From a virus: a DNA stretch of 29,200 nt. Both the position numbers and the translations under genes were made by a program. The notes beneath the pieces are model-generated. The model was not told the DNA's origin, made no database searches, and saw only the letters and a list, made by a program, of their open reading frames with translations. The DNA lies in the IMG/VR virus record IMGVR_UViG_3300034198_005482, positions 1-29,200 of that record. The stretch is one strand, 5' to 3'. Shown here piece after piece: positions 15,793-27,097 of this stretch (the first letter of the stretch is position 1; the number at the start of each line of letters is the position of its first letter).

Positions 15793-15989
15793 TGCATCAG
15801 GTATTTGAATGCTTTGATATAGAACTCCTCGCTCACTGACTTGCCATTCATGAATCGGTATAGCATCGAGTAGTTGACTTTCATATCTTCAGCCATATGG
15901 GTCATCTTGTATCTCTTGACGAGAAGGGACTCCAACTCTTTGCGGATGAAGTCCCTGATTGTCTCCCCATCAGAAAGGTAAATCGTCAT
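15789..15989 (-). CDS. Small Cro/XRE-like DNA-binding protein (66 aa)
   Basis: The core MTHMAEDMKVNYSMLYRFMN followed by GKSVSEEFYIKAFKYL has the helix-turn-helix spacing of Cro/XRE-type regulators (AxxxxVxxSxLxRFxNG). Starts at ATG 15989 or 15998 both lie inside the end of the SSB-like gene (about 20-29 nt overlap). It probably represses within the early region. Confidence 0.5.
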   Translation of the reverse strand: MTIYLSDGETIRDFIRKELESLLVKRYKMTHMAEDMKVNYSMLYRFMNGKSVSEEFYIKAFKYLMQ

Positions 15990-16293
15990 CGATTTCATCA
16001 GTGATAGGTTTTGATGCTGGTGCTGTTGATGCGATTCGGATATCCCATGCATTCAATGACACATAGAACTTGCCATTGTACTCACGACCTCTGAGGTCAA
16101 ACTTAACCTCACACTCTTGACCTGGCTTCGCACCATCCAAGAACTTCACTCGCTCATTCACTGCTTGGAATTGTACCAACTGAGGATACTTGTCTCCGAT
16201 ACTTAGAACGAACTCTCTGAGGTTCATCTTCTCACTTACTTGTTTGGCTTCACCGATGTGGTGGATTGTGCCTTTTGCTTTTAGCTCTTCCAT
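15970..16293 (-). CDS. DUF3127-type single-strand DNA-binding protein
   Basis: This 107-aa protein resembles DUF3127 proteins, an OB-fold family typical of Bacteroidota and their phages: KGTIHHIGEAKQVSEKMNLRE, YPQLVQFQAVNE, GQECEVKFDLRGREYNGKFY and SLNAWDIR. The acidic C-terminus DEIDDDLPF is the hallmark tail by which SSBs recruit partners. It would coat single-stranded DNA during replication and annealing. Its neighbours, an exonuclease and an ERF annealing protein, make a complete recombination set. Confidence 0.75.
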   Translation of the reverse strand: MEELKAKGTIHHIGEAKQVSEKMNLREFVLSIGDKYPQLVQFQAVNERVKFLDGAKPGQECEVKFDLRGREYNGKFYVSLNAWDIRIASTAPASKPITDEIDDDLPF

Positions 16294-16299
16294 TTGTTG

Positions 16300-16917
16300 T
16301 TATTTATTTACTAATTGATTATAATACTCATCATAGTACTCAGATGCCAGCTTGAGGCGCTCAATCATCTGAATCTCTTTGTCCTCATCCCTATCCCACC
16401 ATAGGACAGTGATTCTCTTCTCCGGGTCAATGTGGTCGACTCGATGCAGCTGAAGGTTCTCCCATTCATTCAGGTACTCATCCCAAGTGGTCACCATGCA
16501 GTATATGAGTTCAGCCATACCTCTATCATACAACATCATGTATGCTCTCAACTGCCACTCATAGTCGGATTTGTATCCTTCCTCAGGTGTAGCTGGGAAC
16601 GTATCCAATGACCACGATGTTTTGATGTCGATGATTTTGTTGTCCAGGACAATATCAGCTGTGCCGATGAGATAGTCATTCTCGACTGTTGTCTCATTCT
16701 TTCGGTAGTCAGTGAAGCGAACTGCATTGAGTAGGGAGATTGATTCAAGCTCTTGCTCCCTACCTTTGAAGATATACTTGTTGTTCAACTCGGTAGTATA
16801 ATTGTAAAAGTCCTCCTTAGCTACCTGTCTGATGTAGCTCTTGGCGGTCTCACCCATTTCTGACTTCCCTCTTCCGTTGGTCATCAGCTTCCCGATTTGC
16901 GATGGATGCCATTTCAT
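16300..16917 (-). CDS. PD-(D/E)XK exonuclease (recombination partner)
   Basis: This 205-aa protein has the lambda-Exo/Cas4/YqaJ-type nuclease core: a helix with GREQELES (E54/E56), YLIGTADIV (D88), and a strand KIIDIKTSW carrying D97 and K99. QLRAYMMLYDRGMAELIY is the usual QxxxY helix. It would resect DNA ends to leave single strands for the ERF protein encoded just upstream (ATGA overlap). It might also degrade host DNA. The usual E of ExK is replaced by D, within the family's known range. Confidence 0.75.
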   Translation of the reverse strand: MKWHPSQIGKLMTNGRGKSEMGETAKSYIRQVAKEDFYNYTTELNNKYIFKGREQELESISLLNAVRFTDYRKNETTVENDYLIGTADIVLDNKIIDIKTSWSLDTFPATPEEGYKSDYEWQLRAYMMLYDRGMAELIYCMVTTWDEYLNEWENLQLHRVDHIDPEKRITVLWWDRDEDKEIQMIERLKLASEYYDEYYNQLVNK

Positions 16918-17453
16918 AGTGCAAGAGCTTTGAGTTGAACTTCAGTGAGTGCGTAGTTGGCAACCAACTGCTCTGCTGTGTACTTGCCATTGGCGATTGA
17001 TTCAACTGCCTTCTCGAATCGAGCGTTGTCAATCTTTGGCTTCCCTGTTGCTGCTGATGCTGCTGTGTTGCCATCATCATCAACTGCCTGAAGGCTGAGA
17101 AGTGATTGAATGGTACCTCTTCTGAAGTATGTAACAGCAGCCAATGCTTTCTGAGGGTCCACGATTGGAGGTAAGCTCATGAATGACTCGATGTGCTCAC
17201 CTGTCTCGATGTCGATGATACGAGTCACCACATCATTGCCAACCACAGGCTGCAACAATAGCAGTCCATGCTCGTGAAGGATTGGCTCCACTGTATCGAG
17301 CAGCGCATTGATATCAGCGTAGCTCTTTTTGAAGTGTGGATTCGTTGCATTCTTGGACACCTTGCCAATTTGCTGCTTGGCAGCGTGTAGCTTCTGCCAA
17401 ATGTTGAGGGTTGGCATCTCTGCCTCCTCCGCTTTCTTTCTTGTTGTTGTCAT
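16914..17453 (-). CDS. ERF-family single-strand annealing protein
   Basis: This 179-aa protein fits the ERF superfamily: FKKSYADINALLDTVEPIL, EHGLLLLQPVVG, VVTRIIDIETGEHIESFMSL, PQKALAAVTYFRRGTIQSLL and the closing LQAVDDDGN. ERF proteins anneal complementary single strands and can circularise or repair phage genomes. After the core comes a linker and a helical C-terminal piece (~140-179) for oligomerisation or partner binding. It is encoded immediately upstream of the exonuclease. Confidence 0.85.
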   Translation of the reverse strand: MTTTRKKAEEAEMPTLNIWQKLHAAKQQIGKVSKNATNPHFKKSYADINALLDTVEPILHEHGLLLLQPVVGNDVVTRIIDIETGEHIESFMSLPPIVDPQKALAAVTYFRRGTIQSLLSLQAVDDDGNTAASAATGKPKIDNARFEKAVESIANGKYTAEQLVANYALTEVQLKALAL

Positions 17454-17485: not shown

Positions 17486-17944
17486 TTATTTGATTACTTG
17501 TGTAAACTCATCATAAAATTTCAGCATATCTGCAAAAGTTTTCACGATGATGTATGTACCTCCAGCCTCTTCAATGGCTTTCTGATAGTCCTTTTGTGCT
17601 TGAGATTGCCTATCCTTGCCATATTTGATTTCAATCTTCACACTTCTGCCCTTGATCGTGGCTGATATATCTGCTGAACCAGGTGTGCCGGTCCCCTTGG
17701 TCCACTGACCACCAATGGCAACACCATCAGTGCGGTATTTTTTGCGATACACACCCATCGTATTGATGCGCTCAGCTTGGCACTTGTTGAACTGAAGGAA
17801 TGCAATCACCGACTTGGTGAGCTCATTGGCTGAGTTGTCATTCCAATGAGTGAGCGCCAACATATGTGGCGGTGTGTTTGGATACTTTTCCATTTTGTGC
17901 TTAAGTTGGAGGTCTTTTAGGAATTGTCTTTCTTGTCGTGTCAT
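17486..17944 (-). CDS. VRR-NUC-like endonuclease
   Basis: This 152-aa protein has a restriction-like core: GTPGSADISATIKGR (D92), then SVKIEIKYGKDRQSQAQKDY (E105, K107, with Q114/Q117), and GGTYIIVKTF as the closing strand. This is the VRR-NUC/Holliday-junction-resolvase type used by phages to resolve branched DNA before packaging or to nick replication intermediates. The start overlaps the primase-helicase stop by ATGA. A DNA-binding N-terminal part (~1-60) has no recognised motif. Confidence 0.65.
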   Translation of the reverse strand: MTRQERQFLKDLQLKHKMEKYPNTPPHMLALTHWNDNSANELTKSVIAFLQFNKCQAERINTMGVYRKKYRTDGVAIGGQWTKGTGTPGSADISATIKGRSVKIEIKYGKDRQSQAQKDYQKAIEEAGGTYIIVKTFADMLKFYDEFTQVIK

Positions 17945-20340
17945 AGTTTATTTGCTTTATCATTTAACTCATCCCACACATCACCATCAGTCGGTGGGGT
18001 TGACTGTTCTCCTTCCAATTCGAAGTATCTGCCGTTGTGGTTCCTTCCCTTGGTCATCTTGTATCCTTTGAAGTCAGCATATGCCTGAACCCATTTGAGG
18101 AATCTGCGTGGCTCCAGGTCCTTGAATCCTGTGAACTCCGATGTAAACTCTTGGAGCTTGGCTGAGTTGTAGTGGTAAACTGAGAGAGCAAGATTGCCCT
18201 CTTCCACCCAATCAAAGAAATCCTTGCAAGTTGCCTGAATGAATCGCTTTGCATCTGCGTTGATGCTAATTGATTTGACGAGTCCGAATTGTAGATAGTT
18301 CTGAAGGCATCCAATCATGTAGTTGTCGAACCTGAGCCAATCATTCTCTGCCCATGAGTCGAATAACAGTCGACCATACTCATCGAGTGGACTTCGCTTT
18401 GAATGGAAGTACTGAAAGAACTCAAGCTCATGACGTCTTCGGTCATGTGATGACCCGGCACCACTGATGACATAGTTGGTGGTGATGACAATCTTTGGAG
18501 AACGATCAAATGGAATGAAGATTTCATCCTTATTCTTTCTATTCACAGTAATTCCCTCAGTGATGAGGCTGAACAGCTGCTCGAAATCAAAGTTCCTCCT
18601 GACATCATCGAATGCAAGTATCTGCGTATCCAGGTTGACTCGCTGATATACGAAATCTGACTTGCTTGGATTGAAGCTCTTGCCATCTATCTTGACAATT
18701 TTGCGCAGATTGCCGATGGCGGTCAACATCAGTGACTTCCCTGAGCCACCATTCGGGTTGTCATCAATCTCTTGGTCATTGAATATGATGGCTTTTTGGT
18801 CAGTTTTATCCTTGTATGTATGGATAAGGTACCCGAGAGTGGTTTCAAGCGCTGAGATGCGAGCAGAATCATCCGCAGCCACCTTGCTCACAAAGTTTTG
18901 GAAGTCATTCTTGTGGTCTTCCATAAGTTTGAAGTCACGTTGTATGATTTGATTCTCCCAAATGTAGCCATCCACATCGATGTATGACATCAACTCGACT
19001 GCATCCTTGGTCACTTTCGCCACTCCATTCTTGTATGGTATGAATGAGGCATCCTTTGTATCCTGGAGCATCAAGATATTGATTGAGTCAATCATGTTGA
19101 GGAAGGATTCATTGAACAAAATGGTCAACTTTGAGCAGTGGTTCCACACATCTAGCTCACCCTTCTCAGCAAGGTAGTTCAATACGAAATCTTTTATCTG
19201 CTCAGTGCTGGAGATTCTGACTTTGTTCTCAATGACCCGAACAAAGGTTGGCTTCTCTGCATTCTCAGGATAGTACTTGTTGAATCCGTTCTTGACCAAG
19301 AACTCAGAGTATTTGAGCGGCTCAATGGTGACTGTTCCCTTGTCATTTTTCGACCAAAAGATATCATCTCCTGTCTTGATTTCTTTCTTTACATCCTCAA
19401 CCACATCACCACGCACATTCAACTGCTTTTTGATGTCCTCCTCAGGGATGCCGCTCTTCAGCTTCTGCTTGATTTTTTGGAAGGTATCCTTATCTTCGAA
19501 GTACTTCATGCCAAAAGTGGCTTTTTTGTATGCACTTCTGATGGTGGTGACCATCTCTTGCTCTGAGAATGATGAGCCTTGGCAGTACCTGGTCCACACA
19601 TACTGCTCAGCAGTGTCCTTGTGGATACCATACTCGCAGAGTACAGCTGCCAATTTGAACACAAACTCATTGCGACTGCCTTCAACGAACTCACAACCAT
19701 GGTCGAAGCGCTCAATCAGGCTGATGATTTTATCCTCATCATTGAGTACACAGGTTGGTGTGCGCTCGGTGTAGTTGAATCCTTGATCGTGTTCAATGCC
19801 GTTGAACTCTTGGCAGAACTCATTGAAGTATATCTTAGGGTCATAGGATTCGAAGCATACTCGACTCACATTGCTATTCTTTTGGTCGAAGTATTCAGAT
19901 TGAAAGTGCTTGCCGAATGCAGTGAATCTGCGCTTGTGTTCCACCTTATCACATTTTGGTATTCGGATGACTGCTTTCAAGCCATTGCCTGATGGGGAAG
20001 TGAACACCATCATCACATGAGCATCATCGATGAGGCGCTTCCTTTCGGCATCCATCACCTTTGCATTTGGATATTGGTCGAAGTCCAGGATGCACAATCC
20101 ACTGTGCTCAACCAAGCTGTTGTCATTGCGCTCGGTGAAGATACCGTTGAACATGATTGCATTGAGTGATGACTTGAGGCGGTCATGTTCCGGGTCTGAC
20201 TTCTCCAGTGAGCGGATTGCGGTGATTTTGCGAATCAAGTCAGGTGTGCCGTTCTTGATGCGGTTGTGTACCTCATATATTGAGAGGTTGTAGGGTGTTT
20301 CTTTGCTGTTAAATAGGTTTTTAAATACTGATACTTTCAT
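17941..20340 (-). CDS. Primase-helicase fusion (VirE_N/BT4734-like primase, SF3/D5-like helicase)
   Basis: This 799-aa protein is probably the main replication enzyme. The N-terminal part resembles BT4734/VirE_N primase domains of Bacteroidota: SGLCILDFDQYP near residue 85 (DFD acidic pair), FTSPSGNGLKAVIRI, and VSRVCFESYDPKIYFN. Residues ~230-300 (SRNEFVFKLAAVLCEYGI) look like a PriCT linker. The C-terminal helicase has Walker A NGGSGKS near residue 531, Walker B ILAFDDVRRNF near 576, and sensor PKIVITTNY near 618, followed by an Arg-rich SHDRRRHELEF. No DNA polymerase was found, so the phage must borrow the host enzyme. I start at ATG 20340; the upstream extension is iteron DNA. Confidence 0.85.
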   Translation of the reverse strand: MKVSVFKNLFNSKETPYNLSIYEVHNRIKNGTPDLIRKITAIRSLEKSDPEHDRLKSSLNAIMFNGIFTERNDNSLVEHSGLCILDFDQYPNAKVMDAERKRLIDDAHVMMVFTSPSGNGLKAVIRIPKCDKVEHKRRFTAFGKHFQSEYFDQKNSNVSRVCFESYDPKIYFNEFCQEFNGIEHDQGFNYTERTPTCVLNDEDKIISLIERFDHGCEFVEGSRNEFVFKLAAVLCEYGIHKDTAEQYVWTRYCQGSSFSEQEMVTTIRSAYKKATFGMKYFEDKDTFQKIKQKLKSGIPEEDIKKQLNVRGDVVEDVKKEIKTGDDIFWSKNDKGTVTIEPLKYSEFLVKNGFNKYYPENAEKPTFVRVIENKVRISSTEQIKDFVLNYLAEKGELDVWNHCSKLTILFNESFLNMIDSINILMLQDTKDASFIPYKNGVAKVTKDAVELMSYIDVDGYIWENQIIQRDFKLMEDHKNDFQNFVSKVAADDSARISALETTLGYLIHTYKDKTDQKAIIFNDQEIDDNPNGGSGKSLMLTAIGNLRKIVKIDGKSFNPSKSDFVYQRVNLDTQILAFDDVRRNFDFEQLFSLITEGITVNRKNKDEIFIPFDRSPKIVITTNYVISGAGSSHDRRRHELEFFQYFHSKRSPLDEYGRLLFDSWAENDWLRFDNYMIGCLQNYLQFGLVKSISINADAKRFIQATCKDFFDWVEEGNLALSVYHYNSAKLQEFTSEFTGFKDLEPRRFLKWVQAYADFKGYKMTKGRNHNGRYFELEGEQSTPPTDGDVWDELNDKANKL

Positions 20341-20543
20341 GTCATAGTTGTTTTGAGTGACGCTAATGTACAAAAATTTGCTGATTTGTGACGATTCGTG
20401 ACGATGTTTGAATTGTATCGTCACGCTTGTAACCCTTACTGCTATTGACTTTCAGCAAAAGCGTGACGATGTGACGATAAAAAAACTAAAAATTTTCAAA
20501 TAGAAATAAGGGTCTTAATAGATTCGGTATAATAAGAGATGTG
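20341..20543. repeat. Iteron-like region, candidate replication origin
   Basis: This is the longest gap between genes in the window. It holds GTGACGAT at 20388-20395, 20398-20405, 20463-20470 and 20471-20478, the inverse ATCGTCAC at 20417-20424, a variant GTGACGCT at 20357-20364, and a TCGTCAC half-site at 20549-20555 inside the next gene. Two copies are 10 bp apart and two are 8 bp apart. A long AT-rich stretch follows (about 20477-20540), suited to strand opening. The flanking genes encode a DnaA-domain-IV-like protein and the primase-helicase. No DnaA box (TTATCCACA) is visible. Iteron/origin function is inferred; the repeats may also act as an operator for the primase gene. Confidence 0.6.
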
Positions 20544-20954
20544 TCATTTCGTCACACCATACACACCCTTTTTGATGTCTTCCTGTATCTTTCTCATCTC
20601 CCAAAATGACCCACACTGGAGCACATCGAGCATCAGATTGCGGTCAACCATAAAATCCATTGCAGTGTATGCCTCGAATATTTGACGTAAATCATCGGTG
20701 ATGCGAAGGAATAGCCTGTCATTTTTCCATCCTTTGGCTTTATCGATTCCATAAAGCACTGTTGAATGGTGTGCACCAAAGAGGTTGCCTATTTCAGCAA
20801 GAGTCATCTTGTGTGAGCGCAAAAATGAATACAGGTAGTAACGCTGATAAACTTTGTAACGTGCTCGGTTGTCAGCACCTGGAATGAAATATAGCTCGTG
20901 TTTTTTTATCTGCTCATTTACCTCATCAATTATATCATTCATTGTTTTTTTCAT
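20544..20954 (-). CDS. DnaA domain IV-like DNA-binding protein
   Basis: This 136-aa protein has a segment from about residue 38 (YYLYSFLRSHKMTLAEIGNL, then FGAHHSTVLYGIDKA) that matches the DnaA C-terminal DNA-binding signature: helix-turn-helix followed by FG-x-x-HSTVL. It lacks the DnaA AAA+ ATPase part, so it cannot be a full initiator. It lies directly upstream of the iteron region and the primase-helicase, which suggests it binds the iterons as a compact origin-recognition protein. It could instead repress or compete with host DnaA. The C-terminal half (~80-136) is helical and unassigned. Start ATG 20954 lies just after the previous stop. Confidence 0.7.
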   Translation of the reverse strand: MKKTMNDIIDEVNEQIKKHELYFIPGADNRARYKVYQRYYLYSFLRSHKMTLAEIGNLFGAHHSTVLYGIDKAKGWKNDRLFLRITDDLRQIFEAYTAMDFMVDRNLMLDVLQCGSFWEMRKIQEDIKKGVYGVTK

Positions 20955-20956
20955 GC

Positions 20957-21196
20957 TCAAAAGTTTTGCTCCACCCATTGGCGAAATGATTGTTGTATCT
21001 CGATTTGTTGTTGGAAGATATCCATGTTGCCACCAGCAAGGATGGTCGCATCCACCTTCTGAATCTCCTGAAGCAGCATGGTTGCCTTCTGCTTGATGAC
21101 TCGCTTGAATACACCTTGATCGTTGAGGTCCTCAATGAAGTCACCGAGCACAGGAAGCACACCACACAGGGCAAGTAGTTTTTGTTCTTTTGTCAT
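20957..21196 (-). CDS. Small early protein, unknown (79 aa)
   Basis: Begins MTKEQKLLALCGVLPVLGDF, with IEDLNDQGVFKRVIKQKA and a helical end. Proteins of this type occur in early regions of Bacteroidota phages with no known role. ATGA overlap with the previous gene; the DnaA-like gene follows 2 nt later, suggesting co-expression. Confidence 0.55.
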   Translation of the reverse strand: MTKEQKLLALCGVLPVLGDFIEDLNDQGVFKRVIKQKATMLLQEIQKVDATILAGGNMDIFQQQIEIQQSFRQWVEQNF

Positions 21197-25766: not shown

Positions 25767-27097
25767 TAGACTTGAGGTGTTTGTGTTTGTGCGGCTTGAG
25801 TAGCGGTGACATCACCACCTTCAATCGGTCCAAGTGATGCGAGTGCTCTGACTTCATTGATAGTCATCTGCTCAAGGACCTTGGTTGCCACCAATGGACT
25901 CATTGCATTGAGTGCATCTGATGTCTTGGATGCATCGCCATCGATTTCAACGATGGTTTCATTGATGATTTGGAAGTTGTTGATGGTGAACTCAGCCATG
26001 CTCAGCTTGGCAATGTGAAGTATCTCATTGAAGATATCTTGCACTTGCTCTCTGAGTGGCATCACGACATTCTTTTCGAAGATGACGTATGCTTGCTTGA
26101 TATCAGAACCTGAACCGAGTGAGCCTGTTGTGCGCACACCCATGAGTATTGGGTCAATAGTATGGGCAAAACAAATTTGCTCAGTATTCAACCCGGATGC
26201 CTCTTGGAATAGTTTGTCATTCGAGTTGGTTGGTAGGCTCTCAATCTTCGGCAACTGCTCTGCTGAGTTGGCAAAAAATGCAGCGGTCTTGCCAGCGTTC
26301 TGAGCTCCTTTAAGTTTGTCGATGGTTTGGCGCAGTACGTTCTTTTCCTCTTCGCTTTGTGGGCGCTTAGGGAACATAATTGCAAACGATGGAAATATTG
26401 AGTTCTGAATGTTGCTCTTTGCAAAGAACGAAAGCTCGCCCGACAAAAACGCAAAGTTAAGTGCTGAGGAGTATTTCGGCAGCGGATACCAATCTTGCCC
26501 TAAGCACTCGACCTCATAAACAAAAAGCTGTTCACGATCAGTGCATGATGGATGATGCCTCTTGATTTCTTGGATGTCGATGCGAGTCGACCAATCTTCA
26601 CAAATGAAGTACTGATTCTTTTGGCGGCCCTTTCTAACTTTCTCAGGTGAGACATTCTCAGCCCTGGTCATCTTCATCTTGTCATCAAAAAACAAACGGA
26701 AGTACACTCGATTGTGTACAATCAATTGCTCGGTTGTGATTCGAGCTGTCTTTTTGAGCTTGATTTTTTTCTCGAATGTGTATAATTCAAGGAGGTCCTT
26801 CGGTGTTGCGTTCTTGGTCTTGAGTTCAAATCCACCACCAATAACTGCATTTGTTTTGTAGTCCACGATGGCACCATGAAGTGGTGAGCTGTACACCATT
26901 TGATTGAGCAATTGCGGATACATATCATCCTGGCCAAATCTGATTTGATTGGCGGTAGTGTATCGACCATTGACATATGGGAGTGACAGGTTTGCGCCAC
27001 CAACTTTCAAGAATGGTGTGCTGAAAGCATCATAATTGGATGAAATCATCTCAACTGCTTCCTCTTTTTTTGCTCTGAATCTATCGTACCAAGCCAT
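25766..27097 (-). CDS. Portal protein
   Basis: This 443-aa protein is called a portal from size, position (upstream of the connector and downstream of capsid genes) and motifs: an N-terminal WYDRFRAKKEE helix, then DMYPQLLNQMVYSSPLHGAI and TNAVIGGGFELKTKN (wing), IFPSFAIMFPKRPQ, and late IDPILMGVRTTGSLGSGSD, whose GSGSD turn is common in Bacteroidota phage portals. The 12-mer ring is the DNA entry pore and docks the terminase. The C-terminal ~30 residues are Ala/Thr/Gln-rich. Confidence 0.8.
   Translation of the reverse strand: MAWYDRFRAKKEEAVEMISSNYDAFSTPFLKVGGANLSLPYVNGRYTTANQIRFGQDDMYPQLLNQMVYSSPLHGAIVDYKTNAVIGGGFELKTKNATPKDLLELYTFEKKIKLKKTARITTEQLIVHNRVYFRLFFDDKMKMTRAENVSPEKVRKGRQKNQYFICEDWSTRIDIQEIKRHHPSCTDREQLFVYEVECLGQDWYPLPKYSSALNFAFLSGELSFFAKSNIQNSIFPSFAIMFPKRPQSEEEKNVLRQTIDKLKGAQNAGKTAAFFANSAEQLPKIESLPTNSNDKLFQEASGLNTEQICFAHTIDPILMGVRTTGSLGSGSDIKQAYVIFEKNVVMPLREQVQDIFNEILHIAKLSMAEFTINNFQIINETIVEIDGDASKTSDALNAMSPLVATKVLEQMTINEVRALASLGPIEGGDVTATQAAQTQTPQV

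Follow-up and report, generated by a model that had tools for sequence, protein, structure and literature searches.

A conserved iteron array beside a phage primase-helicase gene as a candidate replication origin

Do the short repeats that separate a DnaA-like gene from a primase-helicase gene in this phage mark a replication origin, and if so, which of the two neighbouring proteins reads them? The window analysed here is the whole 29.2 kb stretch of DNA, all coordinates are window positions, and the array region lies at 20357–20555. A sequence-only reading had proposed a compact origin in which the DnaA-like protein serves as a minimal initiator that binds the repeats as iterons.

A clustered and conserved repeat array

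We scanned the window and found seven CGTCAC cores within 200 bp, five of which are exact copies of GTGACGAT. The neighbouring genes are on the minus strand, so the repeat reads CGTCAC in the gene sense. The copy nearest the primase start is a plus-strand variant, GTGACGCT (20357–20364), with its core on the minus (gene) strand. It is followed by two exact plus-strand copies (20388–20395 and 20398–20405) with starts 10 bp, or one helical turn, apart; an exact inverted copy (20417–20424, minus strand); two further exact plus-strand copies (20463–20470 and 20471–20478) with starts 8 bp apart; and an inverted variant, GTGACGAA (20548–20555, minus strand), within the final codons of the DnaA-like gene (GTG ACG AAA TGA). 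An AT-rich tract at 20476–20535, the window's second least stable stretch of 60 bp, is a candidate unwinding element. The window therefore combines phased direct repeats with an AT-rich tract, as iteron plasmid origins do. The sequence-only reading had described four direct copies, one inverted copy, a variant and a half-site in about 200 bp, the 10 bp and 8 bp spacings and the adjacent AT-rich tract, a description that we confirm.

The total number of cores in the window is ordinary (12, against 11.7 expected), as is the number of single-mismatch copies of GTGACGAT (32, against 25.9), indicating that the remarkable feature is the clustering of exact cores. The array holds 7 of the 12 cores, and the largest cluster per 205 bp in 1000 dinucleotide shuffles of the window was four, reached twice. 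The exact 8-mer was observed five times in the whole window (shuffle mean 1.07, shuffle maximum 3) and never outside the array. A similar repeat density elsewhere in the window, which would have spoken against an origin here, was not seen; the other five cores are scattered singles, and a regulon of scattered operators was rejected on that ground.

We next consider the array in the many relatives retrieved from IMG/VR (loci labelled with L-numbers). The gap between the DnaA-like and primase-helicase genes is exactly 211 bp in most relatives and 202–221 bp in the window's branch. Cores upstream of the primase gene average 4.3 per 215 bp across 42 distinct regions, against a background of 0.07, a contrast that is partly built in, because these regions were picked for having at least three cores. 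Fewer cores are present in another 12 distinct regions. Across 21 aligned gaps of 211–213 bp, mean identity was 0.986 in core columns and 0.840 elsewhere, and none of 210 circular shifts of the core mask reached the observed conservation. No other part of the gap is as well conserved as the cores. The exact 8-mer named by the sequence-only reading describes the repeat in the window, but the unit conserved in relatives is A-N-CGTCAC-(G/A), with A at position −2 in 99% of copies, a variable position −1, and G or A after the core. Direct spacings in relatives cluster at 10 and 21 bp, with 10 bp the commonest; the upstream pair is spaced by 6 or 8 bp, and about 64 bp separate the two clusters. The position of the copy at 20357 is kept in L051–L063, and the inverted copy at 20417–20424 is kept in most of these loci and missing in the 211-bp gap class. 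The GTGACG that overlaps the end of the DnaA-like gene is found at the same place in most relatives. In the commonest class, with a gap of 211 bp, the AT-rich tract does not stand out within its locus.

By inspection, small ORFs resembling HNH homing endonucleases (e.g., MVEVWKDIPGIEGYQVSNIARIKSF...) lie between the array and the primase gene in L001/L055, L057, L059, L072, L024 and L030, shifting the primase start to about 670–740 bp from the DnaA-like gene. Several of these carry a perfect Bacteroidetes-type TATATTTG (also by inspection), and several of the regions with fewer cores (e.g., L057, L059 and L072) have such a gene.

The two neighbouring proteins

The primase-helicase (17941–20340, minus strand) has 799 amino acids, which we assign to a BT4734-like/AEP primase, PriCT-1, a DUF5906/D5-like helicase and a C-terminal winged helix (residues ~695–778). 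Domain searches with the window protein matched BT4734-like_N and PriCT_1, and DUF5906 was detected in 23 of 30 relatives. A sequence search of the PDB returned nothing credible; fold comparison did give matches, the best by Foldseek being ASFV PrimPol, MPXV E5 (D5/E5), the SaPI5 primase-helicase (7ola/7om0) and RepB'. In VIA-align comparisons, the N-terminus aligned with AEP primases (6zp9, Z 9.6), and residues 324–689 aligned with the SaPI5 and D5 helicases at a middling Z of ~6. The protein thus has a helicase of the D5/SF3 type found in the SaPI Rep/D5 class, though the model is of low confidence in the helicase core (pLDDT 23–34 over residues 510–660). Residues 706–776 of the predicted model (pLDDT ~78) follow the H-E-H-H-E-E order of a winged helix. 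Genes for an Erf-like annealing protein, an exonuclease and a DUF3127 single-strand-binding-like protein lie beside the primase operon (15970–17453).

The DnaA-domain-IV-like protein (135 amino acids; 20544–20951, minus strand, with an alternative start possible at 20978) consists of a helix-turn-helix and a conserved C-terminal segment of 45 amino acids. The window protein matched Pfam Bac_DnaA_C with E=1.3e-5, under the curated cut-off; alleles above the cut-off include the homologous allele in L054 (E=1.6e-11) and, from the second family described below, those in L131 (2.7e-8) and L155 (1.6e-11). The closest fold to its AlphaFold model (pLDDT 69.5) was DnaA domain IV (3pvp, Z 9.5 over 89 residues, rmsd 3.0; 1j1v, Z 8.8); Foldseek alone gave the same top match with a weak E-value. 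No AAA+ domain was matched by Pfam in these proteins of 135–144 amino acids. By sequence and fold, then, the protein corresponds to DnaA domain IV and lacks the AAA+ domain of a full DnaA initiator. The C-terminal 45 amino acids (20547–20670 in the window; D-V-L-x-C-x-S-(F/Y)...I-K-x-G-V-Y) are conserved even though the helix-turn-helix differs strongly between alleles, and are possibly a partner-binding segment.

In the window's family, the DnaA-like gene stands beside the repeats wherever the contig reaches far enough, indicating that the gene is clearly important; 120 locus records, which include repeated fetches of the same contigs, have both genes. Apparent exceptions were set aside: in the primase-bearing loci that seemed to lack the DnaA-like gene, no more than 300 bp of contig precedes the primase gene, except in L078, where the contig ends within 582 bp, and L050, with a DnaA-like fragment and no primase gene, looks like a chimeric contig. 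We found no relatives of the DnaA-like protein in annotated phages by tblastn, and no cellular homologues for the DnaA-like or primase alignments in cellular genome contigs. The gene preceding the DnaA-like gene varies between relatives; in L051, L054, L058 and L073 it resembles, on inspection, the end of a cytosine-5 DNA methyltransferase (RRLTPRECFRLMDFPDTF).

Which protein goes with the repeats

The assignment of the iterons to the DnaA-like protein fared less well than the description of the array. In the clearest pair, the window and L051, the primase-helicases are 99% identical and the gaps with their repeats 96% identical, whereas the DnaA-like proteins are 33% identical and differ in the recognition helix. 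Similarly, the same CGTCAC repeats accompany alleles that are only 30–35% alike and have different recognition helices (GAHHSTV in the window; MDHSTV, KRDHATV, KRHHALV, GLKHCTV and NMAHCTV among other alleles). Across 32 loci, divergence of the gap tracked divergence of the primase when the DnaA-like protein was accounted for (partial r 0.65). By contrast, gap divergence was unrelated to divergence of the DnaA-like protein when the primase was accounted for (partial r 0.09). Both genes border the gap, and physical linkage by itself therefore leaves this asymmetry unexplained. These sequence comparisons seem to tie the repeats more closely to the primase-helicase than to the DnaA-like protein.

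A second phage family, comprising MW202828 (L131) and about 80 IMG/VR relatives, mostly contigs of 30–66 kb, has a primase-helicase 40–43% identical to that of the window. Directly upstream of its gene is an array of A-N-(C/T)GACA-T, averaging 3.85 copies per 145 bp on the forward strand and none on the reverse (background 0.63); this pattern was chosen after inspecting the same regions, with strand asymmetry and spacing (9, 11, 20 and 30 bp) as controls. Of 39 loci, 32 have three copies or more, and in 15 of 15 the array lies beside the 50 bp of lowest stability in the locus. The consensuses of the two families align as A-N-C-G-(T/A)-C-A-(C/T). In 36 of 37 loci, the DnaA-domain-IV-like gene belongs to the same replication cassette but is 2.2–3.5 kb upstream of the primase-helicase gene; that is, the array sits at the primase gene, kilobases away from the gene of its proposed reader. 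The trio of conserved iterons, DnaA-domain-IV-like gene and primase-helicase therefore recurs in two phage families, which supports this part of the sequence-only reading, but in the window's family the DnaA-like alleles change under constant repeats. The winged-helix region is the least conserved domain of the primase-helicase between the families (0.27, against 0.35–0.55 for the others), as expected if the winged helix reads the changed iteron. This divergence fits an altered iteron specificity, short of proof. In L131, we also observed a palindrome, TGTCG(T/C)TAACGACA, at four places (near positions 5, 536, 1033 and 4419); it is absent from the other second-family loci checked, and is possibly an operator or a second class of binding site.

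We regard as a tentative possibility that the DnaA-like protein is after all the iteron reader and true initiator, its helix-turn-helix binding so as to bend or open the DNA and recruit the primase-helicase, possibly via the C-terminal 45 amino acids. Consistent with this idea are the predicted DnaA domain IV fold, the presence of the gene beside the repeats in all relatives with a long enough contig, its retention in the second-family cassette, and the GTGACG copies overlapping its end. In all alleles, moreover, the His of the recognition helix is retained, as is a basic residue close to the position of the DnaA basic loop, and for this reason the protein may bind the same repeats directly. 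The constancy of the repeats across strongly diverged alleles, the partial correlations and the location of the second-family array all argue against it as the reader, as does the resemblance of the primase-helicase itself to SaPI5 Rep/D5 proteins, whose characterised members bind iterons through their C-termini.

A candidate origin and its alternatives

The explanation that we favour, with moderate confidence, is that 20357–20555 is a candidate replication origin of the SaPI-Rep/D5 kind, with iterons read by the primase-helicase and the DnaA-like protein as an accessory. Its short iterons, of the form A-N-CGTCAC-(G/A), are mostly direct repeats in helical phase and form two clusters beside the AT-rich tract. 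The primase-helicase would bind these through its C-terminal winged-helix domain, after which hexamers would assemble and melt the adjacent AT-rich DNA; judging from the domains, the helicase would then unwind the DNA and the N-terminal AEP primase would make the first primers. The DnaA-domain-IV-only protein would have a conserved accessory role, perhaps helping by binding the origin or regulating its own operon, but would not read the iterons alone. A DnaA-box (oriC type) origin was rejected: TTWTNCACA occurs once in 29.2 kb, at 26777, and not in the array region, in agreement with the earlier description of the locus as unlike DnaA-box origins. What is directly established is that the array exists and is conserved, that it keeps its place beside the primase-helicase gene in two families, and that it stays constant when the DnaA-like allele changes. 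The proposed check by GC skew, for raw sequence and 4-fold sites, gave no switch at 20.4 kb and was uninformative, nearly all genes being on one strand. Given that skew result and the unexceptional AT tract of the 211-bp class, the case for an origin is built on anatomy, conservation and analogy.

The analogy is closest to SaPI Rep and the related Cch2, self-loading helicases whose C-terminal domain binds short iterons beside the helicase gene (PMC7581432). The window resembles SaPI5 Rep-ori and the putative SCCmec Cch2 origin in having a D5/SF3-type helicase, primase-fused in SaPI5 Rep, with short direct-repeat iterons adjoining its gene (PMC7581432). The structural similarity to 7ola/7om0 comes from a predicted model, and the C-terminal DNA-binding domain is here a predicted winged helix only. 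In SaPI, the origin is downstream of rep, whereas here the array precedes the gene; the sequence of the iterons also differs from those of SaPI and Cch2, a DnaA-domain-IV-only companion is conserved, and the host, as inferred from the families, is probably a member of the Bacteroidota. In phage P4, a single protein, alpha (ori1/crr), acts as primase, SF3 helicase and origin binder, uses short iterons, and is known for a second cis element; the window likewise has a primase and an SF3-type helicase in one protein together with short iterons. To our knowledge, P4 alpha has no DnaA-like partner. Helically phased direct repeats and an AT-rich tract beside an initiator gene also recall iteron plasmid origins of the RepA/TrfA type; however, those initiators have a different fold and recruit the host helicase, whereas this phage encodes its own. 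With DnaA/oriC, the locus shares the domain IV fold of the small protein, but neither the AAA+ domain nor DnaA boxes in the array region.

It is possible that the array has an operator function, alone or alongside that of an origin. The stricter proposal, that a regulator acts through the array to repress or activate the primase operon while replication starts elsewhere, we consider unlikely, whether that regulator is the DnaA-like protein, the primase-helicase or some other phage protein. In its favour, the array directly precedes the start codon, and inspection showed that in many relatives the last iteron is followed by TATATTTA, a possible Bacteroidetes −7 motif; DnaA is also known to act as a transcription factor, and iteron arrays often serve as both origin and operator. 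Neither a sigma-70 promoter nor a terminator was found between the two genes. Nonetheless, five to seven copies, mostly helically phased and beside an AT-rich tract, exceed the needs of a simple operator, and no second cluster in the window hints at a regulon. Most arrays are also kept where an HNH gene puts the primase start about 690–740 bp away, although this argument is not decisive, since a promoter near the array would survive the insertion too. Highly improbable, in our judgement, is that the repeats are incidental, the product of recombination-prone or low-complexity sequence with no protein partner. Slippage can create short repeats in AT-rich intergenic DNA, but the core columns are conserved above their surroundings in 21 relatives, and a variable −1 position stands next to a nearly invariant A at −2, which is the pattern of a binding site. 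No known RNA element was matched in the window by Rfam.

A further, rather doubtful reading is initiation by two proteins, in which the DnaA-domain-IV-only protein, having lost the AAA+ motor, co-binds the iterons and passes the origin to the self-loading D5-type primase-helicase. The helicase would set the iteron code and the DnaA-like partner would undergo diversifying exchange, perhaps as a way around a host defence or to suit a host factor. We found no description of phage DnaA-domain-IV-only proteins with iterons in the open-access literature searched.

Overall, this analysis puts forward a specific origin and initiator, open to testing, in two phage families, for neither of which we found one described. 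The exchange of DnaA-like alleles over a constant origin and primase is a natural experiment that separates the two candidate readers of the iterons. Should the DnaA-like protein turn out to function at the origin, the DNA-binding domain of DnaA would there be operating without the AAA+ motor, next to a helicase of the D5 type.
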